From Aphanomyces cochlioides (lineage: Eukaryota; Oomycota; Saprolegniomycetes; Saprolegniales; Verrucalvaceae): a stretch of DNA of 64,000 nucleotides. Location: NCBI GenBank assembly GCA_019828595.1, contig JAHQRK010000013.1:1953501-2017500 (forward strand). Reading direction: 5' to 3'. Below the pieces are notes generated by a model. The model had not been told where the DNA came from and searched no databases. It saw only the letters and a program-made list of their open reading frames with translations. Below, piece by piece: positions 2,536-19,316 of the stretch; position 1 is the stretch's first letter; every line of letters begins with the position of its first letter. Position numbers and translations under genes: made by a program.

Positions 2536-3308
2536 TTGCCAACACAGTGATGGTCGTTGATTATCATTGTAAATAGTGTATTGTGTTTTCTACTCAAAAT
2601 TTCCTCCGGCGATTGGTTGAATCAACCGCCGGCAAATCGCCGTACCTCCGAAATAAAGTACAAATATAAATTTTTAAAAGGTTTTCAACCTTTGGTTGAA
2701 GTACGGTACACGAAATCGACGATGCTTTGTCGCTGCACTGGCGAGGCCAGTGACCTCTCCACTTGTTTTACGTTCAACGCAAGGAGCGCTGAGCTACGTG
2801 GAATTCCCTTCGAGGAGGGAAGGTTATTTAGAGTAATAGAGATAAAGTGAGATTTCCAGGTTCTCTCTCACAAACTTAGATCTGTTTTCAGCCAATCAAT
2901 TGAAAGTAGAATTATTTTTAGCTAATCATATCGTCCGGTCGATTTGCACGCGATTGGAAATATCGCCTGAAATTGGTAAATTTGGACGGAATTCACAATA
3001 ATGCATTTTGAGTAAAATCAAAAAGGAACCGATCTGCCTTCGAAAAAGCCAAATCTGCCAGGACGAACTTCGTAAGCTATGCAAGTGGTTCGCTCTTTGG
3101 GGGTCTTGAGATTTGTCGCCATGATTGTGTTGACGCCACAAGGCTTTCTGAGTGTCGCAGTGGTTTCAAGGAGGTGGAAGTAAATAAAGGTGGACAACAA
3201 TCCAAAGTGAGAAGGTCGAGCGAAGTCTTCAACGACATGTCGGCGAGCGCAACGTGGAGCAGTCAGTCTTTCGATTTGTGAATCTATGATATCGCTCTTA
3301 TATGACGA
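2536..3308. other. Intergenic, no supported feature
   Basis: I see no gene, RNA or intact repeat here. The short ORFs lack domain content. The sequence just before 3309 ends in GA, the form a reversed Helitron 5' terminus would have, but the preceding bases do not match the other Helitron 5' ends well enough to call another copy. Confidence 0.4.
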
Positions 3309-4518
3309 CTAGTGCCTGTGACCCGGCTTCGCTCGGGTGCGTGGAAAGGGCATAGTTGTCGCCGATTTCGTGAGGTGTATTACACTGCCTTCAGCGTTCA
3401 ATCATGATGCTGTAAAGAGAAGACTAATATTGAATAAATTGGCAATCTAAGTCTTATCTGACCCGGCATACACCGCATGGTAGCGTGCACTTAAGCCTAA
3501 TATGGAGTTCGACTAATTCTGAAGCACTAACTTAAGCGTTCTGCAGCCCTTACTACCTCAAAACACAACTTTTGCAGTCGCGTTCATACATTTAAGCACA
3601 CTGCTAAGTTGAACAAAGAATAATCTGGAGCTAATACAAGCTCAATGAAGCATTAATATAACCTTCCCGGTTTTTGTTTTATGCTACTACAAAATCTATC
3701 TTAGCGTGAACATCACGCATGTAGTTCGTGGGCATTCTGCAGTAGAAATGGTATCCCAGCACAATGCTTTAATGCAGTGCCTTTACCAGGCCTCTCTTGG
3801 GCGAATGTATGGACTTTTGATGTTGACACGATTGATTTATTAGTTAGAACTCTCGCTACTACAATGTATAGCGCTGACTTTTACAGAGCCTTTTCGATGA
3901 TTCTATTAAGAGTAGAACGGCATGGACTAAATCGGCAATCTAGACTATCTGGCACGCATGGTGGCGTGCATGTAAACCTAATGTAGAATTTGACTATTCC
4001 TAAAGCAGCAACCAACTTAAGCGCACTACCCTAACTACAGCAAAACCCAACGTTTGTTTTCGTGTTCAATTTACCACACTGCTGAGTAGAGCTAAGCGTC
4101 TTCCGCTGTTCATTGTCCCCAAACCCCCAGACCACTAAAATATACCAGTTTGATTCTGTAGGATGGTTGACATGACGACGGAGTTACAGCTCAATGATAT
4201 TTCGCCAAAACTCAAAAATTCTTGTCGTTCAATTCGTCACCCCTCCCCAACATCCAAAAATGCACAGTATTGTCCAATCAACAGACTTTTCTGAACTCCC
4301 GCGAGAGCTCCCATTTTATTTAATTATTTTATTACGATAAGTACATACAATTATCAAGTGTAGTGAGGAGAGTGGTATACTTGAAAAAGGCAATTTTTGA
4401 GTGTAGAACCACCAAAACAGGAAAAGGATGGTTATTTTGTCCAGTGGATGGTGGTAGAGCGGACGGACATTTTGAGTGTGCACAGACACACAGACTTTCT
4501 TTCCCTTTTATATAAGTA
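3309..4518 (-). mobile_element. Helitron A (non-autonomous)
   Basis: On the minus strand this ends with a hairpin (ACCCGAGCGAAGCCGGGT) followed about 10 nt later by CTAG at 3309-3312, the classic Helitron 3' end (hairpin then CTRR). Its 5' part, 4270-4518, matches the 5' regions of the other Helitrons here (a run of ACTTATATAAAAGGG then a GTGTGTCTGTGCAC motif). The 5' tip lacks the TCTAC seen in the other copies, so it is cut by about 5 nt at the junction with Helitron B. No protein is encoded. Inside are two diverged copies of a 250-270 bp unit, near 3370-3640 and 3885-4100. Helitrons transpose by rolling-circle replication using a RepHel protein supplied by autonomous relatives. Confidence 0.8.
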
Positions 4519-6815
4519 CTAGTGCCTATGACCCGGCTTCGCTCGGGGGGGGCAAGGTGAGTTGACGTGGCATGGTTATTGACTTGCCATATGTCAGCAG
4601 GTTTCGCTAAGAGCCTGAAGCGCTAACTTAAGCATTCGTCCAAGATGCTATTAAGCGTAGAAGAACACTAACCATTTTGGCTATCTAAGCCTAATCTGGC
4701 CGTGGATTCACCGCATTATGGCATGTACTTATGCCTTAGATAGAGTTCGACTAAGCCTGAACTGGTAGTAACTAAAGCGCATTGCAGCCCCAACTAACGC
4801 TAAGCAAACCTTTGAAGTCACGTTCATTCATTTAATCACAATGCTAAGTTGAACTAAGCTTTAAGCGTCATGTCACGCTCATCGAATCGTTTCCTGTGCT
4901 CATCTGACGTTACTTTTCAACATCTATCTTAGCGTTTATATCATGCATATAGTTCGTTGGCATTCATCTGTTGAAATTGCAAATCATTTGAGCTCATTTT
5001 GAATGCATGTCTTGACCCAGCTTCACTCAGGTCAGTGCAATGATATTCGACGTAGACATTGATTTACCATTATGAAACAACTTTCCATAAGCGTATAGCG
5101 CAGACTTCAAGCGATCATCGATGATTTTATTAAGCTTAGATGAATATTGACAAAATCGGCAATCTAAACTTCATCAGGTCATAGATCAACCGCATGTTAG
5201 CACGTTGTTTTAGTCAAATGTAAAATTCAACTCTACATAAAGAAGGAACTACTTAAGCACATTGCAGCCCTAACTATATGTACATCAAACTACAATCAGA
5301 GTAGACGTGTTCACGTTATTCATATTGCTAAGTTGCACTATGCGTAATCAGGCGTTCGTTTACGTGTAATATGAGCTATATCACCATGTAATATAGTACA
5401 TACTGTATATACTTATTACAGGGCAATCAATATCAAAGATGGCCTTGACCTCAGAGGTTTACAATCGCCAGAAGGGACAATTGTCCTCGTTAGCTAAATT
5501 ATGCATTGTTTCACTCGTACTGAAGCATTATTAGAGATATTTAGCAAGCCCGCAAACTGCACTTTTCCGACTCAAACTTCGATTGATCAGAAATATCCGA
5601 ACTTCGCTTTGCGGACTTGAGAGTCGGAAAAGCCGATCAGATGACAGACTTGTGATCACGGAGTCGGAAATGTGCTATGCAACTTGCCGCCCAATGCAAA
5701 GCACACAAAAGGGTTAGGTAACTCACATTAGAAAGAGAGGGATAGAACAAAGAAGATGAATGTGACGTTGGGAATTGTCAATCGGTCATTATGAACAGCT
5801 CTTCGGAGTAAATGAAGGCGAAGTCGTAGAGAGATGGAGGATCTCCGAAGCAACATAGCGCGATTATGCATTGCGACAAAACGAAAAGTGTTCAGTGTGT
5901 TCCAATGCAAACCTTGAACTTTAAATGCTAGCAACAGGGATATTCAGTTTGCGAACTTGCTAAATACACAAAAGTATGATATCCGACTCTCGGGTGAAGG
6001 GGGGAAATCGAACGAAGTTGGGAGTCTGGAAAGTTTGCAGATTTCAGACTTGCTCCTATTTACTGCAATCTAGCGCATACCTTATCGCATCGTAGTGCTG
6101 ATATTAGTGTAATGTGATACTCATCTAATCGATCCCAGCACTCAGCCTTTTCTAATATTGTATCTGTCTTAACGTTTTGTCGTTCAGCAGAAACAGTATC
6201 GCAGTCTAGCTAAGAACCTAAAAACCTAATAATCTGGGATAAATATTTTCATGCCATAGTTTTATATTATATTTTCGTCAATTAAGCAATTGTCGAGGCC
6301 TCATATGACTCAGGACGAATGCATGCCTAAGTATCAGACAAAACGTATACGTTATGTGAAAAGCCTTCGACGGTAGCTGCGTGAGAGTGCTTCTAAACAT
6401 TAAACCTATCGTCGCTGGTCAGCAGGTTTTTCTCCCTGTGTGGTAGTTTGGAGATGAGTGATCAAGCAGGATGGTTGACATGACGACGAATGCTCTGGTC
6501 AGAACATTACTGCCGCATGATTACTTTTCTGTCGTTCAATTGTCACCTCTCCCTATCATGTAAAAATGTACAGTATCGTCCAATCAACAGACTTTTCTGC
6601 TCCCATTTTATTTGATTATTTTATTACGATGAGTTCATACAATTATCAAGTATTGTGAGGAGAGTGGTTTACTTGAAAAATGCAACTTTTGAGTGTAGAA
6701 CCCCCAAAACAGGAAAAGGAGGGCTGTTTTGTCCAGTGGATGGTGGTAGAGCGGACGGACATTTTGAGTGTGCACAGACACACAGATTTTCTTTCCATTT
6801 TATATATGTAGTAGA
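4519..6815 (-). mobile_element. Helitron B (non-autonomous)
   Basis: The 3' end is CTAG at 4519-4522 beside the GC-rich hairpin; the 5' end is GA at 6814-6815, which reads TCTACTACATATATAAAA on the minus strand. It abuts Helitron A on one side and Helitron C on the other with no spacer. The first 250 bp inside the 3' end closely match Helitron D (gcaaggtgagttgacgtggc and onward). Two copies of the internal 250-270 bp unit lie near 4615-4865 and 5085-5345. A degenerate second hairpin near 5013-5040 (GACCCAGCTTCACTCAGG) may be an older 3' end. No coding sequence is recognisable. Confidence 0.8.
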
Positions 6816-7142
6816 CTAGTGCCTTTGACCCGGCTTCGCTCGGGTGGGGGGCAAGGAGAGTTGATAGGGTGTAATTTTTCAGGAATGCTTAAACGATCCA
6901 CGCGTCTGTAATACTAACTTCAATATACTACATAATCATCCCAGAAGTCATTTAGCTTTAAGTAGACTTACTGAATTGATTATCGAAGCTTATTAATACA
7001 TTGTCTGAACACGTATATGTATTTAAACCTAAGGCAATTTTTGCCTCTACCTTAAGTACTTTCAAATGCAGGAAATGAAGTAAAGTCAAAGGCAGTTTTT
7101 CTTCTACCAAAAGAGTTTTCAAATGGAGTGCCCCATAGAGTA

Positions 7143-8976
7143 CAGTATAACCTGTCAAGTGAAACACCTCCTATACTGAAACACCTCACAAGTTGAACGC
7201 ATTTTCATCCACCGATTCATTTCCATACGTTCCAACCTGCTAAGTGGAACAAAACAACCTTGCTTCTGAAACAGTCTTTTAATACTTAAATCAAGCTTTT
7301 TTTTATCAAATTCGCGGTATTTGTGACGTACATGGTTGAATTGAGTCTGTCAGAGAGATCGGAAATCATTGCCCTTGTTGAGAAAGGCACCCCCTACAAG
7401 TCGATATGCACCAAGTACAATTGCTCCAAGGCTATGATCACGCGTATCAAGAAAAGCAGGGATCAAATTGCCGCTCAAATCGCCGAAAACGGCGATCCAA
7501 ACTCAAAGAGACCTCGCCGCTTGGTTGGAGACGCTCTCGAGCTCGACCGACGCGTCTATATGTGGTTTTGTAAAGCAAGATCGACGAAAATCATAAGTGT
7601 TACTGGTCCCATGATTCAAGAGGCGGCCCGACGGTGTGCGAAGACCATGTATCTTTCGAACTTCACTGCCTCCAATGGCTGGCTCCAAAACTTTCGAGCA
7701 AGACACAACATTCAATTTAGAACACTCTCTGGTGAGTCAGCTGTAGTGGATATGACTGCAGTCAAAGACTGGCAAAATGTAATTGCCATGCTTGTAAAAG
7801 ACTACAGCCCACGCGACGTATTTAATTGCGATGAGACTGGTCTGTTCTGGCGTGGTATTCCAACGAAGAGTCTAATTGCGCGTGGCGAGGAATGTAAGGG
7901 AGGTGAAAAGGCAAAAGAACGAGTATCAATCCTGCTGACAGCATCATGCATTGGTGAGAAGCTACCGTTGCTCGTGATAAACAAATCGTTCATGCCAAGG
8001 TGTTTCAATAAATTGCTGCCCCTCGGAGTATTATGGTTTGCCAACTCGAAGGCATGGATGAATGGCTCGATCTTTTCAAGTTATTGTATGTGGCTCAACA
8101 AGCGAATAGTGATGAAGGTCGGCGGATTTTACTTGTCATCGATAATGCGCCATGCCACGTTGTCCCTGAGTCAAAGCTGACTCATGTAAAGGTTGCATTT
8201 CTGCCTTCAAATACTACTTGCGAAACTCAGCCGTTAGACGCTGGCATTATCAAGAATTTCAAGACAAAGTATCGCAAATTTCTGCTGGAATACATGTTGA
8301 CAATTATCGACGACTACACTGTTGATGCCGCGGTTCAGCTCCTCAAACGCGTTGACATGAAGATGGCCGTCGAATGGATGAAGTTGGCGTGGTCTGAAGT
8401 GTCTGATATGACGATTCGAATTTGTTTTAGCCATGTTGGCTTTCGAGCACTACGGCGAGAAGGTGATACTGATTTTGTGTGGGATTTTCAATCGAATATT
8501 GAACGCTTTGAGACCTCCATTGAGACCGATATTGAAAACGACGTCTCTTCGATGATGAACTCTCTTGGTGTGGCGAACGACAGTGTGTGCGTCGAAGAAA
8601 ATGTTTCAGCGTTCGACACCAGCACAAGCTCATGGGAATCTTCGATATTTGAACCAGAACCTGAAGTCGAAAGTGAGGATGAGGAAGATGGTGTGGTAGA
8701 AGCCCCACCGCCAACTCGAGACGTCGTGGAAGCCATTGACAAAGTAGAAATGTGGGCTCGCCATACTGGTATAGATCTCTCAAAAGAGCTCCAAGGCATT
8801 CGGCTGGCTGTAGCATTCCATCGTCGCAGTCTTCCAAATGGTGTTCTGGATGGATGGCTTGAAAATCAAGAAACCTCTTAAATGTTATATATTCCATCCC
8901 TCAGGTTTCGAAACACCTCGTATGTTGAACAAAGTATGAGTCCACGGAGTAGTGTTTCACTTGACAGGTTATACTG
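7143..8976 (+). mobile_element. pogo/Tigger DNA transposon with TA duplication
   Basis: Perfect 25-bp inverted repeats, starting CAGTATAACCTGTCAAG, lie at 7143-7167 and 8952-8976. Each is flanked by TA (7141-7142 and 8977-8978), the target duplication expected of Tc1/mariner-pogo elements. The single gene inside is a pogo-type transposase on the plus strand. The element is inserted in Helitron C and is 1834 bp long. Intact matching ends suggest it is younger than the Helitron it sits in. Confidence 0.9.
7332..8881 (+). pseudogene. pogo/Tigger transposase, one frameshift
   Basis: The product would be a DDE transposase that cuts and pastes the surrounding element. The first 60 residues form a helix-turn-helix (MVELSLSERSEIIALVEKG, then CSKAMITRIKK), followed by a CENP-B-type DNA-binding region (KARSTKIISVTGPMIQ, then NGWLQNFRARHNI). 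The DDE_1 core shows FNCDETGLFWRG, LLVIDNAPCH and TCETQPLDAGIIKNFK, which hold the three Asp residues of the DD-D triad. The frame changes once between about 8060 and 8105 (WFANSKAWMNGSIF to DEGRRILLVIDNAP), so the gene is broken between the first and second Asp. The C-terminal tail is acidic. ATG at 7332 was chosen because the upstream GTG has no initiator support. A small intron at the frame change is possible, but no clean GT-AG pair is visible. Confidence 0.85.
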
Positions 8977-9947
8977 TATACTTCGGAAAAGTAGAACATT
9001 AATCGAAGAGATTGGTTTCATCACCTGTGCATTTCATTTTCCTTAGCGTCTATCTTAGTGAGCTACTCTGAACGAATATGGGAAACATAGTGGCATGACA
9101 GTCAAATGAGGAATTGACTGACCTTCACAGTTTAGAGAACCCAACTAATGATTCAATTACGTGCACATATACTTCAATCGATTTGACGCAAAAGTGCTGT
9201 AGCAGGTTCGTTTGTATCAGGTTATGGCAAAATATCACTCATCTTAACGTAATGTAGCACTTATGTAGGCGCAATGTAGTTCTTGTATTGTGGGTTGAGT
9301 GGGAGTGCAAGAAGACCTGAATATGTATGATTGATGTGGTTCATGATGTTGAAGATAATTATGGACGGCAAGCGTCAACAACTCATTAACGCAGCTTCTC
9401 TCGACGGCCGAAGAAAGTCGCTATAAAGGTCTCGATGATATAGCGCATGTGGTCGCATCCTCATGTTTTCAATTGTACCTTCCCAATGCATGACTGCTAG
9501 ATATATTACTATGAAAGAGGTGCATTGTTCATGATTCAAAGTTGACTTAAATCGGAGAGAAGCAATGGAAGTATTGCTTCAGTGACGTCAGTCCGCTGAC
9601 TGCCATGTATTTACCCAAGTCTGATAGTGAAACTGATGTATGATTTGCTTGGCAAGAAGGATGGGATGACTGGAAAAGTTAGTGTTCACGATTTTTCCAA
9701 AGGTATAGTTCATCATGTATGGTTCTTGCTTGATTGTATCTGTCCTGCACATTATTTGAGAGACATGTAGTCTCAGCTTGGCGAACTAAAGAAGCCATCT
9801 ATAGTGTGTAATATGCACTGTGGAGAATAAACGTAAGACTAAATTATATGGTATGCGGTGCATCTTTGTGAAGTGATTTATCGTCGATGAAATAACACGA
9901 ATATAACGATCGAAGTTGATTACGAAAGCTAAATCGACATTAAGTAC

Positions 9948-10319
9948 TTATTCGTCTAATACTTGAGTATGAACTACGTTCTTGGTTGATCCGCCAGGGG
10001 CGTATACGTACGAATTTCTTCCCAATCCGACTCGGGAGCACGCGATGTATAGCTGAACATGTGAAAAGCATGGCGTTTCCAAGTCAATACCGACAGTCTT
10101 TAATGACTGACCTTGAGATTTGTTGACTGTCATGGCAAATGCTAAGCGCACGGGAAATTGTGCACGTGTGAAAATAATAATGGCATATGGCATATTCTTC
10201 ATATCAATGGGGATGCGGGGGATAAAGACTGTAGTGTTCTTTGCACATCCTGTAAGGACAATGGCCTCGATCATATGGCGCTTGAGTACTGTGACGCATA
10301 GTTTTTGGTCCATAGTCAT
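9948..10319 (-). pseudogene. Helitron RepHel, C-terminal helicase fragment
   Basis: This 123-residue open piece is the end of the PIF1-like helicase of a Helitron. It carries a RHMIEAIVLTG segment, then FPVRLAFAMTVNKSQGQSL (helicase motif V), then HVQLYIACSRV (motif VI, with its Arg), and ends with a TKNVV segment typical of the family's C-terminus. The Rep nuclease domain and helicase motifs I-IV are absent; upstream of 10319 the sequence no longer matches. It lies inside Helitron C in the same orientation as the Helitron ends, which supports those ends independently. Not functional alone. Confidence 0.85.
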
Positions 10320-11687
10320 CCTCAGTATGTATGACCCACAGTACGTATAGACTTTTGCATACTACCGGAGAAATGCTGGGATGTTCTCCAGAAGATCATC
10401 GCAAAAAGTCGTATAGTACGAAAGACTGTGCCAGATAATTAGGGATGTTTTCCCCTAGGGTTCTTTTCCGCTAAAAAACTTGAAAAACCCTAGGCATCCC
10501 CTTTCTCCGAAAAATATCAGAGCTTTCACGCACAGACGAAGACCACCCACAAACGACCAGCGTAGACAGGTGATATCGTATTTACAGGATAAAGTCTAAG
10601 GATTCCCTTTCGACCTCCTGAGGTACGCTGTCCGAAGACACGACGACGCAGACATACAAAAACATATTAATTAACAACTTAACGCTGGGCTACGACTCAC
10701 CTCGACGACGCAAATTCGAAACTGAGCTGACGGAGTTCATGTCAATTGTACTAATTTGACACCAACTAATATGATCATAATATGTCAGCGGCATTTATTT
10801 CACAAAATGGGCTTTTTAAGGTGGATTTGGTTGCATTTTGTCAAAATATATATTGGTGTGAAATTTTAAAATAATTTGACATCTCGTCGCTGTACGTGAT
10901 GACAGCTGACATGATGGGTGCAGTCGATGGCAAAACTCCCATTCTCCGGAATTTGTGGGCAATTTTATCAAGTTTTAGAGCATTTGTGGGACAAATTCTC
11001 CCAAATTTTCAAGAAAATCACAATTTTCTTGTCAGTTGTTTTCATACATTTTCATGACCACATATAATTTTTACGGATTTTGTGGGACAGAGTCCCACAC
11101 TATAAATTTATAGGGTTTTGACGATCGACGTCTTTTCTTTTGTGAAAGTGCCAAAATGACAGCCCCGAACTAGAGGAACACTGTTCTTGTAAAGCAAACT
11201 TCCAGATCTAGGAGCTAAGACTAATGCTTATACAGTTTGAGTAAGCTTTAAGTCCATAATTTAAGATAGCCCAGATTTGATCTGGGCAACACCATTCATG
11301 AATGAACCACCGCAGAGACACTGGTGTTTCATCATTGTTTATTATGTCACAGTAAGAGTCTATTTAACATAGTAAGCTCATCTTAGGGGCGTGTGCTACA
11401 TCTAAATATTGACTCTTCTCTGAAAGATCAATTGAACAGGAGTCGCCGAGTCCTTAGCTATTAGAAATGGCATCATCTGTCTGTGCGATTGTCTCGGCAG
11501 TTTATGTGTCTGCTGCTAACACGCTTTGCAAAAATACAGAAATTTTCTGTTCACTCAGACTCCATGAACCATTCAGTGCAAGTTACAATAATTTGCAGCT
11601 CAAACACGCTCGCTAAGGCGTTCAGACGTCTTTACTAGGCAAGTAGAATATGAAAGCACAGCCTATCCTTCCTTAATGATAACGCTG
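10320..11687. other. Helitron C body, no coding signal; one short hairpin
   Basis: No protein family was recognised on either strand. At 10441-10502 there is an imperfect inverted repeat: GGGATG and CCCTAGGG on the left, CCCTAGG and CATCCC on the right. AT-rich sequence at 10900-11110 holds several TGTGGGACA motifs and GTCCCACA. It may be lost RepHel sequence or an older, unrecognised insertion. Confidence 0.35.
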
Positions 11688-13768
11688 TTATCCCTTCGAG
11701 GACGACGGGTGCAAATTTGCACCAGATACACTGTTTGGGTTACAATTTGAATCCTAACTTTGCAACGACGACGACTCATGGAAATATAAAACGTCGATGA
11801 AGATCCCAGTAGTTTCAGCTTCAGTTTCACATAAATAGAACCTTAACATAGAACACTAAGGTGCCCATTTGGCCATTTGAAGATGTCTGTGATGTCGGGA
11901 CCATACGCTGCACCCATGCATGAAAGTGATACAATCGAAGTCGAAGTAGTTGATGTTACGACCACTCTGCACCGCATGGCAATGGATGGCTTTATCCTGA
12001 ATGATGAAGACTCCAGTGATGATAGCGACGAGAATGATGAAATACTCATTGACAATGAACAGGGATACATCCCCTTTGATAGTCAATTCAACAATCACGC
12101 TGAATCAGCTATATTACCCTTAAATTTGCGCCTCCAATTTATCCAACCGATTTCAATTTTCAGCCTTTTATTTACTTGTGACGATTTTGAATCTATTGCG
12201 ACGAATACAAACAAGTATGCAGTACTCAACTGTGCAATCTCGTGGAATCATGTGACTACGAAGGAGTTGAAAGTGTGGCTTGCAATTGTGATATTCATGG
12301 GAGTCCACCAAATTGCTACACCAGCAGAGTGTTGGAGACAAGATCCAAAGTCACCACGTTATCCATTTTGCAGCTACATGACAAGAGATAGGTTTAAGCA
12401 ACTTCGTCGATACATACACATATCCGATCCACAAGTGGCTTCACAAAACTGGTATTCAAAGCTCGATCCACTTGTTTCAAATGTCAAGTCAAAATTCAAC
12501 CAATATTACCTGCCACCGACCAATGTAAGTGTAGATGAAATGATGATTAGATTTAGTGGTAGGAGTGCATACACTGTCCGCATGAAAAACAAACCTATCT
12601 CGGAAGGATACAAGGTCATTGCATTGTGTGGACGTGGCTATTGCTATGCATTTGAACTGATATCCCGAGTTGAACAATCTAGCGTGGCTGCAAATCCTCA
12701 CATCAGTGACACTGGAAATATTGTGATACACTTGGTCAAGCAATTGCCATTCACGCAAAGGAAATTTAGCGTCTACATGGACAATTACTATTCCAGCATA
12801 CCATTATTTCAATTACTACGAAGAATTGGAGTTGGAGCATGTGGCACAGTCAGATCTAATTCCCGTCACTATCCACAGGACATGAAATTTAGGGGTCAAC
12901 GAAATGCCCAGTTTGATTGGAACACTCTTAAAAGCAAGCCTATCAATGGTGTACTTGTAGTTTTTTGGATGGATAATGGACCCGTGCAAATGCTCTCAAC
13001 AATTCATCATGTCAACAGTGATCAATGGTTCATAAATCGTACAAGACGACGCCCTCGTGTGACTTCAACAAATGCTAACACTGTCCGTCGAGTGTTTGGA
13101 GATGACCACACAAAAGAATTAAATATTCCCAAGGTTATTGACGACTACAACTACAATATGAATGGTGTGGACATATGCGATCAACTTCGTAGCTATTATT
13201 CATTGCAGCTTATTTCCAATCGCACGTGGCTTCCCATATTTTTCTGGCTGATGGACACAGTTGTGATCAATGCTTATCAAATATTTAAATTGCAAAGCCC
13301 GAGTAGCAATTTATCGCACAAAGATTTTCGTCTACAACTCGCCTGGCAACTCATTTTCGAGGGTACGACAGATCAAACAACGAGAAAACGCCGCAGGGAG
13401 CATGCTGCCAATCTTGATAGAACAGAAACTCCAATGAAAGCAACCTACTTGACCAAACACATGGTTGAATTACCAATGTGTCGTCTGCATCCTGCTGGTC
13501 ACTTACCTGTCTTCACGGCAACTCGGCTCCGTTGCTTTTACTGTCGGTTTAAGTTGAAAAGATCGCCGAGCAGCAAGCAAGCACCACAAACAGACGTTGA
13601 ATGTGGCTTCTGCCATGTGCCTTTGTGTATGTCGAAGAAGCGAAATTGTTTCTTCGATTTCCACCAAGTTCAATAAACATATGAATCATGACAATCTCTT
13701 TTGTACTTTGATTTTGTATTGAAATGTGATGCAAATTTGCACCGAATCATCCGTCCACGAAGGGATAA
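11688..13768 (+). mobile_element. piggyBac-like transposon with TTAT/ATAA ends
   Basis: The ends are 17-bp imperfect inverted repeats: TTATCCCTTCGAGGACG at 11688-11704 and its near reverse complement at 13752-13768 (one mismatch). Just inside each end is GCAAATTTGCACC; on the left this extends to the perfect palindrome GGTGCAAATTTGCACC. piggyBac elements normally start with CCC after a TTAA duplication. Here the outer four bases are TTAT on the left and ATAA on the right. The element holds one intact transposase gene and sits in Helitron C. Confidence 0.8.
11883..13676 (+). CDS. piggyBac transposase (PGBD-like), intact
   Basis: This single-exon 597-residue protein is a DDE transposase that excises piggyBac elements precisely. 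The N-terminus is acidic (DDSDENDE). The core has WRQDPKSPRYPF, VSVDEMMIRFSGRS (first Asp), FSVYMDNYYSSIPLF (second Asp), VVFWMDNGPVQMLS (third Asp) and NMNGVDICDQLRSYYS. The C-terminus is a Cys-rich zinc-binding domain (CRLHPAGH, CFYCRFK, CGFCHVPLC, CFFDFH), needed in the family to bind the inverted repeats. There is no frameshift or stop, in contrast to nearly every other transposase here, so activity is possible. ATG at 11883 follows an in-frame TTG at 11877 and was preferred as a normal eukaryotic start. Confidence 0.9.
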   Translation: MSVMSGPYAAPMHESDTIEVEVVDVTTTLHRMAMDGFILNDEDSSDDSDENDEILIDNEQGYIPFDSQFNNHAESAILPLNLRLQFIQPISIFSLLFTCDDFESIATNTNKYAVLNCAISWNHVTTKELKVWLAIVIFMGVHQIATPAECWRQDPKSPRYPFCSYMTRDRFKQLRRYIHISDPQVASQNWYSKLDPLVSNVKSKFNQYYLPPTNVSVDEMMIRFSGRSAYTVRMKNKPISEGYKVIALCGRGYCYAFELISRVEQSSVAANPHISDTGNIVIHLVKQLPFTQRKFSVYMDNYYSSIPLFQLLRRIGVGACGTVRSNSRHYPQDMKFRGQRNAQFDWNTLKSKPINGVLVVFWMDNGPVQMLSTIHHVNSDQWFINRTRRRPRVTSTNANTVRRVFGDDHTKELNIPKVIDDYNYNMNGVDICDQLRSYYSLQLISNRTWLPIFFWLMDTVVINAYQIFKLQSPSSNLSHKDFRLQLAWQLIFEGTTDQTTRKRRREHAANLDRTETPMKATYLTKHMVELPMCRLHPAGHLPVFTATRLRCFYCRFKLKRSPSSKQAPQTDVECGFCHVPLCMSKKRNCFFDFHQVQ

Positions 13769-15179
13769 AGTTGCTAAAAGCTCTTTGACCTCATTTTACT
13801 ATCTATGGCAGTGTAGTTCGTAGGGCCTCGAAGTGAGGCACTTTGAAGAGGGCTTGTACACATCATCACTCGAGAGTCAAAGCAACTTAAGTGTTTTACT
13901 TAGCTTTTAATGCCTTCAATACATGCGTTTTATTGTTCCCACGATTGTCCCACAATTTCCGTCTAAGAGTCAATTTGCAGTCAGAGCAAGTGGCAAAGAG
14001 ACTCGTTTCGATTCTCTCTGTCGTGTCATGAATCACTCTGACCTCTTAATGATTCACTTTGATACACGGTTCTCCTCTGAATGAGATTGTCGCTCTGTTT
14101 TCAAGTGGAGAGAGAGGGTTGACATGACGACCATACAGTTTTAGCTGACATTACATCAGGTGTTGTAAATTTTATGTCGTTCATGCATGTCACCTCTCCT
14201 GGTAGTCCAACAGTTGTGGGTTTGTGGGTGTGGGGCTTGTACTCATGAAATTCACTTTATTGTCCAATCAACAGACTTTTCTGGACTCTCGCGAGAGCTC
14301 CCATTTTATTTAATTATTTTATTACGATAAGTACATACAATTATCAAGTGTAGTGAGGAGAGTGGTATACTTGAAAAAGGCAATTTTTGAATGTAGAACC
14401 ACCAAAACAGGAAAAGGAGGGCTGTTTTGTCCAGTGGATGGTGGTAGAGCGCACAGACATTTTGAGTGTGCACAGACACACAGACTTTCTTTCGCGTTTA
14501 CATAGTAGTAGACTAGTGCTTTTGACCCGGCTTCGCCCGGGGGGCAAGGTGAGTTGACGTGGCATGGTTATTGATTTGCCATATGTCAGCTGGTTTCGCT
14601 AAGAGCCTGAAGCGCTAACTTAAGCATTCGTCCAAGATGCTATTAAGCGTAGAAGAACACTAACCATTTTGGCTATCTAAGCCTAATCTTACCGTAGATT
14701 CGCCGCATTATGGCATGTTCTTATGCCTTAGATAGAGTTCGACTAAGCCTGAACTGGTAGTAACTACAGCGCATTGTAGCCCCAACTACCGCAAAGCAAA
14801 CCTTTACAGTCACGTTCATTCATTTAATCACAATGCTTCGTTGAACTTTTACCATTATGAAGTAACTTTTCATAAGCGTATAGCGCAGACTTCAAGCGAT
14901 CATCGATGATTTTATTAAGCTTAGATGAATACTGACAAAATCGGCTGTCTAAACTTCATCGGGCCTTGGATCAACCGCATGCTAGCATGTTTGTTAGTCA
15001 AATGTAGAATTCAACTCTACCTAAAGGAGGAACTACTTAAGCACATTGCAGCCCTAACTATATGTACATCAAACTACAATCTGAGTAGTCGTTTTCTCGT
15101 TATTTATTACGATGAGTTCATACAATTATCAAGTGTAGTGAGGAGAGTGGTATAATTGAAAAGGCATTTTTTGAGTGTA

Positions 15180-18100
15180 CAGTGCACGCCATCTGTAGCC
15201 TGTAATCATGGTCCTGATAGGATCGATGTTGGACATCATTCGATCTATTGCTCTCCGACACATCTATTGCTCTCCGACACAGACACATCGAGCTCTGGGC
15301 AGTATGATCTTATCAAGACGTGTGCGAGTGGCAACTAAGCCTTATTGATCAACGACATGTTGATGCGGCGGTGAGATCGCTGTTTCTTGACGGCCCACTC
15401 GGCTTGCTCGTTTGACAGGCCATTGCGTTAAGCGTCCATGTATCGCCAGCACTTCCTGGCGTAGCGACGAATAGACGCCAACGTGGCATGCTCCATCGCA
15501 GCTTCAACCGTCGGGAGCAACTTCGCAAACGAGTAGTCACAATTCTCCCGGCATTAGTATTTGAGGGCACCCCAGTACATCTCGATAAAGTTCAACTCGC
15601 AGTGGAACTTGGGCAAGAACAGAGCGACGTGTCCAGTGGCTTCAATGGTCTCTTCAACACGGGACTTCTGCGACTTGAAATCAGGTTGCGATGCGAGGAG
15701 TTCCTTGGCTGTATTGAGTTTGAGACTGCTGTTCCATAGACCGCGCTCCTCGCGCACTATCTTAATTCCCTTGGGCGTTTCGTTGGGGGTCATCACCATC
15801 GGCTGCGTGATACGAACGCCATCCTTCTCATACCAGCCATCACGAAGCTTGGGTTGCTTGCCGCCTGGATGGAGATTCATGTTCGACGTGCTCAGTGCAT
15901 CAACAGCAAATGCACCGTGGTTGATACTGTTGTCAAAAAGAAAGACGCCAACGCATCCCGGATGTAACGCTTCTACCACTGGCAGCAACTTTTGCTGGAT
16001 CTGAAGAAGGAGATGATCTGCAGTCCACCAACCTTCTTCGTTTTTGCCAGGCGTGAGCTTCTCCATCGTTGCAAGTTCGGCGCCGTCCAAAACGGCTTTC
16101 ATACGGTCATGACATTCGCACAAAAATTCGGAGATCATGATGCAACGACCCTTGCCCTTCTTGCGCAGCGGTGGGTGCTTTGGATGAATCCACATCGGCG
16201 AATCGCCGTCGTTTGAGTAGAATAGCGACTCGTCGTGTACGATCAAGACATGCTCCTTTTCGCCGTTCTTGAGCTCAGGTTTCGTCTCGTTGGTCATGGT
16301 CTCGCCGTCGTACTTGGTCATGAGTTGCTCGAGGTTAAAGATGCGCTCAAGGAAGACTTTTCGGTAGGCCTTGACGTCGTCTCGTTCATGGCCATCAATG
16401 TAGACGCCTTTCTTGGCATTCATGTACTTGTACCCGAGCATATTGAGGAACCTTTGGCACGAGCGACGGCTAATCGTTCTTGTCGGAAAAAGGTCGTTTT
16501 TCCAAGAAGCGCTTTAGAGAGACGACTCCAATTTGCCTGGGATTGAGCGTCTGGAGAAAGCAGCGACACTGCTCTTGTACGTCGTTCTCACAAAGCATTG
16601 GACGAATCTTTTGGTTGTGACCACGTACAACTGGCGGGAGGAACAGATTCTTGCGATAGAAGTCGGCCCAACGGCGAATATTCTGGCCATAGTTTCTTGC
16701 TGACTTCTCCAAAAAGATGTCATGCGCCACCCTTTCACTCGCCGCGATCATGAGCTCGCCAGTCAGTCTTGCACACAAGTACATATGCACCGCTAGGTAG
16801 CGTTTGAGGTCGTGCGCTGAGAGCGTCGGGTGTGACTTGCTGGACGTGATTGGTGCGACAACAATGTCGTGGAGAAATTCGATTGCACGATTTATGTCGT
16901 CTATTGGTTCAACTTCTGCGCGACTGCTTGTACTTTTCAAGAAAACGCGTATGTCTTGAGAATGTAAAAATTGGTCAATACATGCGCTTGCTCTGCGGAG
17001 AAACGTACGCTTTGCTGCCTCATCATTTTTCGTCTTGTTGCGCCACATTGTGGTTCGGGAGGAGCTGTCATAAAAGAAACGCTGGTGCTTCGCCGCTTCT
17101 TCCTTATACGAGATAAACCACTTGCTTGAGTCTGCCTGGTCGACTGGTCTTGTATCCATAAACAACTCGTCCTCTTCCGAGCTGTCATCCTCGGCAAGGT
17201 CCGCAGTGTGGGCCTCGGCCATACCGGGCTCCATGACGTCTTAGCACAGAGATTAGGAAGATACACGAGCTCTGCATCATACCTTGGTCCTGAAATGCGA
17301 GGTCGTCGTTCTTCGGCTTCTTACGCGGGGCTTTTCTCGCCCTCTCGAGTTGCAGCGCCCGCTTACTCTTGAACACCATTGCCGCACGATGAGAGAATGG
17401 CACTTCTGGGATAATAAAAATAAAATAAAATAATGATCAAATAATAAAAATATAAAACAAATTCTGTTTCAATTTTTGTTTCATACTACTCTGGTCCGGA
17501 ATAATTGTCCCATTGTTAAAACTACTGCATTATCTTGATATTAGTATACCGATGAAAATAGTTAAACTCTGATAATTGATTTAACTTGAACTTTGCATTT
17601 AGTTAAACAGTTAAGCAAATAAAACGCTACGTTAAACTACATTTTCCTAGTACGTTAAATGTATCCTTTTAGCGCCATGCCGCGCCATGGACTTCGCAAG
17701 GCGCAAGCAAAGTAGCGGGAAGTCACAGACGCTTATTGTTGGTGATATTCGAAAGATTATCATATTTGCTACGATATTACATGAGATTTCTTTTGAACGG
17801 TGACCCGGTAATGACGAATATCGTTATCATAAACATCCCTCTTGATATGATCCTTTTTCCATCGCGATGCATGGTAGTTGATCGCTTGCACACACATGCA
17901 TAGTCAGGACAAGGAGAGTACTATTCTTAAGTGGCTAATGTGAAAAGAAGCCCCAATACCGGCGTTTTGAACGACCAGCGGAGGATTAACTAGCCCAAGG
18001 ACCGACACGACATTTTCGTCGATTCGTATCTTGACAACCACTTTGAATCAAGGCCGCCAGAATACATCCAATCAAAGTTGAGATCAAGAGCTTTCATTTA

Positions 18101-18397
18101 AGCCAATCAAACAAGGAAATGGATGTTTTGTTGAATTTAACCGCCAATCCGAAAACAATGGGACAATTAATATGGACCAGAGTAGTATCGGCACCTGACC
18201 ACGGTGTTAAGTGCTCAACTTTGACTTGCATGCATTTCGTCAATTTTTCGAATTTTTCAAATCGGATTCTGTCAGTCGCTTGGACTTGGACAAATAATCG
18301 ATTTACAGGCTTATTTCATCGAAATTATGATATATAGAAGTTTGTATGTGGGGTTTTGGGCAGCCATTTTATTACAGGCTACAGATGGCGTGCACTG
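15180..18397 (-). mobile_element. IS630/mariner-like transposon, 27-bp inverted repeats, TA duplication
   Basis: Positions 15180-15206 (starting CAGTGCACGCCATCTG) are the exact reverse complement of 18371-18397. TA flanks both ends (15178-15179 and 18398-18399). Joining the flanks recreates the uninterrupted Helitron sequence GAGTGTAGAACC seen in copies A and C, which proves insertion into Helitron D and gives the exact target. A single transposase gene lies on the minus strand at 15335-17379. The stretch 17380-18370 has no coding signal and probably holds the promoter and subterminal sequence. Confidence 0.9.
15335..17379 (-). pseudogene. Large DDE transposase (IS630/mariner-related), one intron, broken
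   Basis: The protein starts MVFKSKRALQLERARK and has a 43-bp GT-AG intron at 17240-17282 that restores frame (FQDQ to DVMEPGMAE). The catalytic part has VLIVHDESLFYSNDGD, FLFDNSINHGAF and FHCELNFIEMYWG, matching the DE / DN..H / NxIExxW pattern of the IS630-Tc1-mariner group but with a longer gap before the Glu. I recall similar large transposases from fungi but cannot name the family. Breaks: a 1-nt frameshift near 16475 (SDKN to TISRRSCQRF), and in-frame stops at about 15552-15554 and 15424. After these the frame continues with conserved-looking sequence (IRRYARKCWRYMDA) to 15335. It is recently dead: few lesions and perfect inverted repeats. Confidence 0.8.
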
Positions 18398-19316
18398 TAG
18401 AACCCCCAAAACAGGAAGAGAAGGGTTATTTTGTCCAGTGGATGGTGGTAGAGCGGACGGACATTTTGAGTGTGCACAGACACACAGATTTTCTTTCCCT
18501 TTTATATAAGTAGTAGATATAAGTAGTAGATAGATAAGTAGTAGATATCACTGTGGGCACAGCTACAGTAGTGTATAAAGTGTTCTCAACCAAAATCATT
18601 GACGGCATTCGTCGCCAGCAGTCCCCCTCAAAATACTATTCCAAACCTATTCTTCACCGTGAGCTGATCAGACTATTCATTCCTTCACGACGAGGAGGCG
18701 AATGACTTACTCTCCATAGGATATTCAGGGATTATTCATTTCCAATGAGCTTGCTCTAGAGTAAGTTATTCGAGTAATTCAATCAAAACATGGAGTGTTT
18801 ATTATGCATTGAGCTTACGCCTGTTCCTTCTTGATGATCTCTTGCACATCGCATTGAGGAGGTTGACCCTTTGCTACTGACAATTTCCTCAATTACATGG
18901 CCACTGGCTTCCCTGGTATTCCCAGTAGCGCACAGTCCGACCAACATGTGCGACCAAGAAATGAACCACTCGTGGTTTCGACGCAACCACGTCGCTCACT
19001 ACATACTGCTTACACGACAAATGGCTGCATTCAGCGAGTTCACCAGCATCATCACTTCTCACACGCTTCATGCTTCTTGAGGCGCACTAGCAGCTCTGCG
19101 ACCCGACCGTGGGAATGCGCCCCGCCAACAATTGACGACGCATGCCGTCCAACCATGCATCCTCTGACGTGACAAACAAAACCTATTCTGGATTTCAGCC
19201 GCAAAACACATCGATAAGGCGAAATCGCCGACTCAAAGCCAACGCTCAACTAAGCTACCGCACAAGACAGTTCTACGGTTCGGGAAGTATTTCATTTTGG
19301 TGCACATGGTGCATGG

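Follow-up and report, generated by a model that had tools for sequence, protein, structure and literature searches.

A head-to-tail array of four Helitrons

We analyzed a 64,000-nt stretch of the Aphanomyces cochlioides genome (contig C5:1953501-2017500), the whole of which we refer to as the window and which holds a head-to-tail array of four Helitrons, A to D. All four lie on the minus strand and belong to one family, here called fam1. An earlier note on this DNA had proposed such an array with junctions at 4518/4519, 6815/6816, and 14512/14513, and reading of the sequence confirmed these positions. The array and its flanks are laid out as follows.

3292-3308, minus strand: host 3′ flank of the array, TCGTCATATAAGAGCGA, a T and then TATA
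3309-4518, minus strand: Helitron A (fam1), 1210 nt, non-autonomous; 3′ CTAG at 3309-3312, 5′ end without TCTAC
4519-6815, minus strand: Helitron B (fam1), 2297 nt, non-autonomous; its 3′ end abuts the 5′ end of A
6816-14512, minus strand: Helitron C (fam1), an internally deleted element of the autonomous type with two nested DNA transposon segments; both junctions exact
14513-18517, minus strand: Helitron D (fam1), itself about 0.8 kb, with a further 3.2-kb element nested inside; joined exactly to C
18518-18545, strand not assigned: the opening ~12 nt of the Helitron 5′ end twice more, followed by host DNA

The B/C (6815/6816) and C/D (14512/14513) junctions both read CTAG|TCTACTAC, where the bar marks the boundary, with zero bases between the elements. 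The A/B junction (4518/4519) reads CTAG|TACTTATA, the first five bases of A (TCTAC) being gone, in agreement with the loss of about 5 nt that had been noted there. The 5′ terminus of D lies at 18517. The 5′ and 3′ ends are common to all four copies, as had also been claimed. The 29-nt 3′ end matches four times in the window (up to three mismatches allowed, at most two found) and not once in 100 shuffles, and the first 122 nt of the 5′ end likewise occur four times, the other three copies being 86-95% identical to that of B.

The units carry the canonical features of Helitrons. The 5′ TC stands in TCTACTAC at the 5′ ends of B, C, and D and of most copies facing host DNA, and is lost in A. The 3′ CTRR takes the form CTAG in every window copy and at 25 of 30 fam1 3′ ends in the genome. 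Each window unit closes with a GC hairpin, then 8 nt and CTAG; the hairpin, with a ACCCGAGCGAAGCCGGGT-type stem ending 12 nt before the 3′ end, is predicted in all four units, where it folds only slightly to modestly better than shuffled sequence (z of -0.2 to -1.9). The base immediately before the element is A at every intact host-facing 5′ end, 16 of 16 in fam1 and 10 of 10 in a second family, fam2, and a T directly follows 28 of the 30 fam1 3′ ends. The fam1 count is what remains of 31 5′-end hits after removal of 9 degraded ends and 6 in junctions, with a C14 end reading ACTACTAC counted as intact; the fam2 count is what remains of 26 after removal of 11 in junctions, 4 degraded, and 1 unread. 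By these flanks, fam1 appears to insert between A and T without target duplication, as is canonical for Helitron1. Autonomous Helitrons encode Rep/helicase, and Helitron_like_N matches lie, by coordinate overlap, inside nine fam1 copies. As a separate observation, 4 of the 16 intact fam1 copies have another TCTA immediately before the one that belongs to the 5′ end, compared with about 1.2% of A|T sites.

Stacking of fam1 across the genome

We searched the genome (76.2 Mb in 94 contigs) for the ends of fam1 and its relatives. The fam1 3′ end occurs 30 times with at most three mismatches, and one more diverged end lies on C19; this 31st end (C19:81776) was found by reading beside a fam2 copy and biases the stacking count slightly. 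The fam1 5′ end has 31 matches. Solitary copies elsewhere show the same termini as the units of the array, whereas different termini would have spoken against the junctions as drawn in the earlier note. The second family, fam2, is short, mostly ~0.75-0.9 kb where both ends are known, with a 5′ end of TCTATATAATTAAAGG and a 3′ hairpin ending in AGCTCAGCTAG; it has 26 5′-end and 23 3′-end matches. The hairpin GCGAAGCCGGGT followed by CTAGT has 38 exact matches, all in fam1 or fam2, and the two families share their first ~90 nt (score of 34, against a mean of 8.3 and a maximum of 17 in 500 shuffles). The 5′ end of a further family, fam3 (5′ TCTATTACTTAAGG, 3′ end in GGGGCGTAGCCCTGGCCTCACCCTAG; 273 3′ ends and 410 5′ ends), is unrelated to these ~90 nt, scoring 9.0 compared with 9.2 when shuffled.

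Our analysis found 16 of the 31 fam1 3′ ends (15 of 30 without the 31st) directly at the 5′ end of another Helitron, while the remaining 15 lie in host DNA as judged by 70-nt flanks. Among the 16 stacked ends, 11 are exact, 3 show small losses or additions, and 2 carry an 8-nt spacer. Ten are stacked on fam2 (eight exact, one with three extra bases, and one eroded), four on fam1 (three exact and one short by 5 nt), and two more on fam1 with the same 8-nt spacer on C26. The C19 locus is a triple, fam1|fam1|fam2. All 16 stacked pairs are oriented head to tail, and no head-to-head pair was seen in the flanks that were read. About 0.00015 such events would be expected by chance from 31 insertions onto the 57 kin 5′ ends. 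A fam2 3′ end, by comparison, is followed by a Helitron in 1 of 23 cases, a fam2 copy with a 5-nt loss (Fisher P of 0.0002 versus fam1), and none of the 410 fam3 5′ ends stands directly after any of the 31 fam1 3′ ends.

The two spacer-bearing fam1 ends on C26 (467884 and 471661) read CTAC for CTAG. Between this and the neighboring element both have the 8-nt tail ATTTGTAG, which looks as though a fresh 3′ end had arisen 8 nt downstream, with an old duplication as the alternative. Two loci, C26:362910-364601 and C33:194952-196696, carry a similar composite fam2 unit that has two fam2 5′ regions; since its 3′ host flanks differ between the two loci, it probably moved as one. Each of these composite units is preceded by a different fam1 subfamily.

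Array units have independent relatives

If the four units had arisen together, they should be near-identical, and they are not. Helitron A has a full-length relative on contig C26 (90%), and over its whole length B shares 97% identity with a solitary copy on contig C3, rising to 99% over its 3′ 260 nt. The segments of C match copies on contigs C4, C17, C19, and C33 at 92-97%, and D has relatives on contigs C14, C26, and C19 (about 91% over ~600 nt). A tree of the 3′ ends separates A, C, and a group of B and D well, and the split between B and D within their group is moderately supported. On the evidence of their sequences, the window units are at least three separate fam1 subfamilies, with B and D closer to each other.

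Near-identical fam1 copies are also found in different surroundings. The 3′ end of B is 98% identical (122 nt compared) to that of a fam1 copy preceding fam2, and that of D is 98% identical to a copy preceding fam2 and 97% to a solitary one. A solitary C17 copy shares 99% identity with the one at C19:80225, which stands before fam1. The presence of such near-identical copies in host DNA, before fam1, and before fam2 shows the insertions to be separate. The stacked partners are, moreover, discordant: C26 and C33 have sister fam2 copies (100/100) while their fam1 copies fall in different groups, and the fam1 3′ ends at C9 and C34 match while their fam2 copies are separate, a pattern repeated at C2 and C7 with weaker support. 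We therefore rejected a composite fam1-fam2 unit spreading together, a possibility also at odds with fam1 lengths that vary by locus. The same discordance, together with the mix of subfamilies, means that a single read-through cannot give the stacked loci.

The resident 5′ end as the probable target

The A found at all 26 intact host-facing 5′ ends indicates which end of a resident element would serve as the target. The boundary between host A and element TC is itself a canonical A|T site, and an insertion there leaves CTAG|TC. Landing after the CTAG of a resident would instead require insertion between G and T, so CTAG|T is not a canonical target. We consider it likely that the array grew by repeated separate insertion at the 5′ end of a resident Helitron, not beside its 3′ end.

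We propose that an incoming fam1 Helitron would be joined, 3′ CTAG first, to the resident 5′ terminus (A|TC) in the same orientation. The fam1 transposase, which must presumably recognize and nick fam1 and fam2 5′ ends for excision, could nick the 5′ end of a resident, to which a different excised element could then be joined by its 3′ end. Such a join would be the circle-closing reaction of Helraiser, performed in trans between two elements. The absence of fam1 before fam3 fits this recognition of kin ends, unless fam3 is younger. Prokaryotic IS200/IS605 elements (IS608) offer an analogy: their target sequence is also needed beside the left end for the next excision, and a resident left end stays a target. 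They have no helicase and use a different transposase, so the likeness is one of analogy only.

A sequence preference of the family probably helps. TATA occurs within 16 nt at 11 of 15 fam1 host sites, compared with 4 of 22 for fam2, 2 of 18 for fam3, and 4.8% of A|T sites, and TA precedes the cut at 12 of 16 fam1 host sites, compared with 19.5%. The preferred form, TA|T and then TATA, is found at most kin 5′ ends as well: fam1a and fam2 5′ ends contain TATA, while those of fam1b do not. We rejected the idea that these TATA motifs are gene promoters, as no sense open reading frame (ORF) of at least 60 aa starts within 300 nt at any of nine fam1 host sites, those among the 15 whose 3′ flank covered 1.1-1.5 kb.

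The fam3 host sites show a motif of their own, with TTAA within 16 nt at 10 of 18 compared with 6%, and the fam3 5′ end contains CTTAA; these sites come from 19 flanks, fetched from 100 of the 273 3′-end places, of which 18 are host and 1 is a junction. The host motifs thus echo the 5′ end of the family concerned (TATA in fam1 and TTAA or CTTAA in fam3). More tentatively, and with rather less confidence than we place in insertion at the 5′ end, fam1 could be a self-stacking Helitron whose transposase prefers fam1 and fam2 5′ termini, in which case 5′-end recognition and target choice would be a single activity from which arrays follow naturally.

Alternative origins of the array

The earlier note had left the origin of the array between a concatemer made by rolling-circle read-through and repeated insertion next to an existing 3′ end; repeated insertion is supported, but neither the concatemer nor the 3′ end is. 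Read-through, or the insertion of a multimeric circle, would have placed the four units at once and is the usual reading of such arrays (PMC5876387 and PMC4067079). It accounts for the exact CTAG|TC junctions, two of the three in the window, and fam3 arrays in this same genome have such junctions and near-identical units where read. The window units, however, differ in subfamily, length, and interior and have independent relatives, so we rejected a concatemer of one element, and fam1|fam2 junctions join different families, which copying of one element cannot yield. We thus hold this origin to be very improbable. Landing after the 3′ CTAG of a resident would produce the same final structure, and the T that follows 28 of the 30 3′ ends agrees with one half of the A|T rule. 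Such landing would put G before the cut every time, against A in all 26 intact host-facing 5′ ends, and the fam2 3′ ends, which are mostly CTAG, have a Helitron after them in 1 of 23 cases and never fam1; we judge such landing to be quite improbable.

A further possibility is mimicry: fam1 would favor TA|T with TATA, kin 5′ ends would resemble that site, and insertions elsewhere would have been lost by selection. The TATA counts given above agree with this, as does the TA found on the 5′ side in five of five intact fam1 copies preceding fam2. The genome offers about 142,000 sites of TA|T plus TATA. Were the motif the sole guide, the 57 kin ends would receive ~0.01 of the 31 insertions, a deficit of roughly three orders of magnitude. 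The lack of near sense ORFs at the nine host sites tested lends no support to strong loss by damage to genes, and fam1b 5′ ends, which lack TATA, are still used as targets (C in the window, and C19). A fixed-position target profile proved too weak as proof of mimicry; when set against A+T-rich sites, kin 5′ ends come out at 85-99% under the fam1 profile, and the fam3 5′ end at 83%. We regard mimicry as unlikely. Unequal crossing-over or segmental duplication of a junction would explain the similarity, about 95% on either side, between the junction regions of A/B and C/D, as well as the spacer common to both C26 junctions. The tree argues, with moderate support, against such duplication of A/B and C/D, and we assign this origin a very small probability. 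An assembly error is extremely improbable, as junctions of this kind recur at 16 places on many contigs with different partners.

Several observations weigh against insertion at resident 5′ ends as the origin of the array. The fam2 elements are stacked in only 1 of 23 cases, although the same 5′ ends are available to them, and fam3 may postdate the activity of fam1, which would be another cause of the absence of fam1 on fam3. The TATA motif was chosen after the flanks had been seen, and fam1b ends do without it. The fixed-position profile mostly reflects A+T richness, and neither fam2 nor fam3 has a profile that favors its own 5′ ends (ranked at 38-52% and 69%, respectively, among A+T-rich sites), which also speaks against 5′-end recognition and target choice being one activity. 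The four units are not equally distinct, as the 3′ ends of B and D share 95% identity across 300 nt. An inner position of a longer array would, in addition, already have G before it. Private divergence is 13/1540 and 7/1059 in B (overlapping stretches, not summed) compared with 26/1303 in C, where one of four segments (8 of 330) was left out as badly aligned for C17 and C19a. These counts hint, weakly, that C was in place before B, which would then have inserted between A and C at a G|T site. They do not fix the order of insertion.

Regularly spaced fam3 arrays in the same genome

Arrays of a different kind are formed by fam3. A search for fam3 head-to-tail junctions gave 179 matches genome-wide (at most three mismatches), and all of the 100 listed read CTAG|TC. 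On C1, 29 3′ ends follow in succession among the matches listed, mostly ~1.42 kb apart. Three C1 units that were read are 99.8-99.9% identical, and on C12 a comparison of 1608 nt between copies spaced 4193 nt apart shows no difference; near-identity thus rests on two arrays read in part, the others being known by spacing. Five regularly spaced arrays are as follows.

C1:2706413-2747518: unit of ~1.4 kb
C10:1596079-1622646: unit of ~1.9 kb
C35:301520-317175: unit of ~1.95 kb
C89:1177841-1192118: unit of ~2.0 kb
C12:3792046-3805368: unit of ~4.2 kb

The fam3 arrays appear concatemer-like, and a concatemer or later unequal exchange would both produce them. The centromeric Helitron arrays of plants resemble them, unlike the window array, whose units differ. 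Short 5′-terminal Helitron pieces are also tandemly repeated, as ~12-nt units adjoining D (window 18505-18545) and as fam3 5′ ends with ~127-nt and 92-nt spacing (C1:1026604-1027014 and C3:62997-63209).

Comparison with known Helitron systems

Helitrons lying next to each other or in tandem have been described before, in bats, silkworm, maize, Fusarium, and Metarhizium (PMC4067079, PMC4778049, and PMC5148889). Head-to-tail arrays have served as an argument for rolling-circle transposition (PMC5876387). For bat, silkworm, and maize, PMC4067079 describes tandem or directly adjacent Helitrons, including distantly related ones, and ascribes tandem arrays to bypass of the termination signal; the window array, in contrast, is best accounted for by insertions that occurred separately. 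In the circles that Helraiser produces, the CTAG|TC joins are exact (PMC4778049). The bat Helibat/Helraiser system shares with fam1 the 5′ TC, the 3′ CTAG, the hairpin, the A|T target, and an A+T-rich 3′ side of the target. Adjacency in that system is one of three sources of 39 new 3′ ends (395 copies) and, in the part of the account available, has no rate of its own, while about half of fam1 is stacked here, mostly on a second family.

In the available part of PMC5148889, a Fusarium FoHeli4 copy lies 2 bp upstream of the 5′ end of another, three tandem copies in Metarhizium are attributed either to insertion into a 5′ end or to circle replication, the choice being left open, and centromeric tandem arrays of plant Helitrons receive a one-line mention. 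The FoHeli and Metarhizium examples differ from ours in being single cases of the Helitron2 type (FoHeli1/2 target TNAT|A). Our literature search, with most subscription papers outside its scope, recognized no measurement of the preference of one Helitron family for kin 5′ ends.

The genome seems to carry both separately inserted arrays of unlike elements and regularly spaced arrays of like units. Side by side, the two show how such arrays can be told apart, which changes how Helitron arrays should be read. They also point to a testable link between 5′-end recognition and target choice. Stacking on existing copies would, in addition, keep new insertions out of genes.

Contents of the units

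A RepHel remnant had been attributed to one copy only, and this is borne out among ORFs of at least 110 aa, where likeness to Helitron proteins is limited to one, in C. It would encode the C-terminal part of a helicase; its Pfam helicase matches are weak and below the cut-off, but the surrounding stretch of DNA is 92.6% identical to a fam1 copy on contig C4 with a full Helitron_like_N domain. Between the segments of C that match this C4 relative, ~5.6 kb is gone, including most of the Rep/helicase gene. The features inside C and D are as follows.

7143-8976, plus strand: Tc5/pogo-like transposon nested in C, with TA on both sides and domains DDE_1 and HTH_Tnp_Tc5; absent from the relatives of C
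9948-10319, minus strand: ORF with the helicase C-terminal remnant in C, with the DNA match to the C4 copy
10941-13971 (approximate ends), plus strand: segment absent from the relatives of C, with a piggyBac-type transposase (DDE_Tnp_1_7) at 11877-13676
15180-18397, minus strand: 3.2-kb transposon with terminal inverted repeats (CAGTGCACGCCATCTGTAGCCTGTAA) nested in D, with TA on both sides and a weak DDE_3 match

Named matches of the piggyBac protein in C include Phytophthora, Pythium, and several fungi, at about 37-52% identity.

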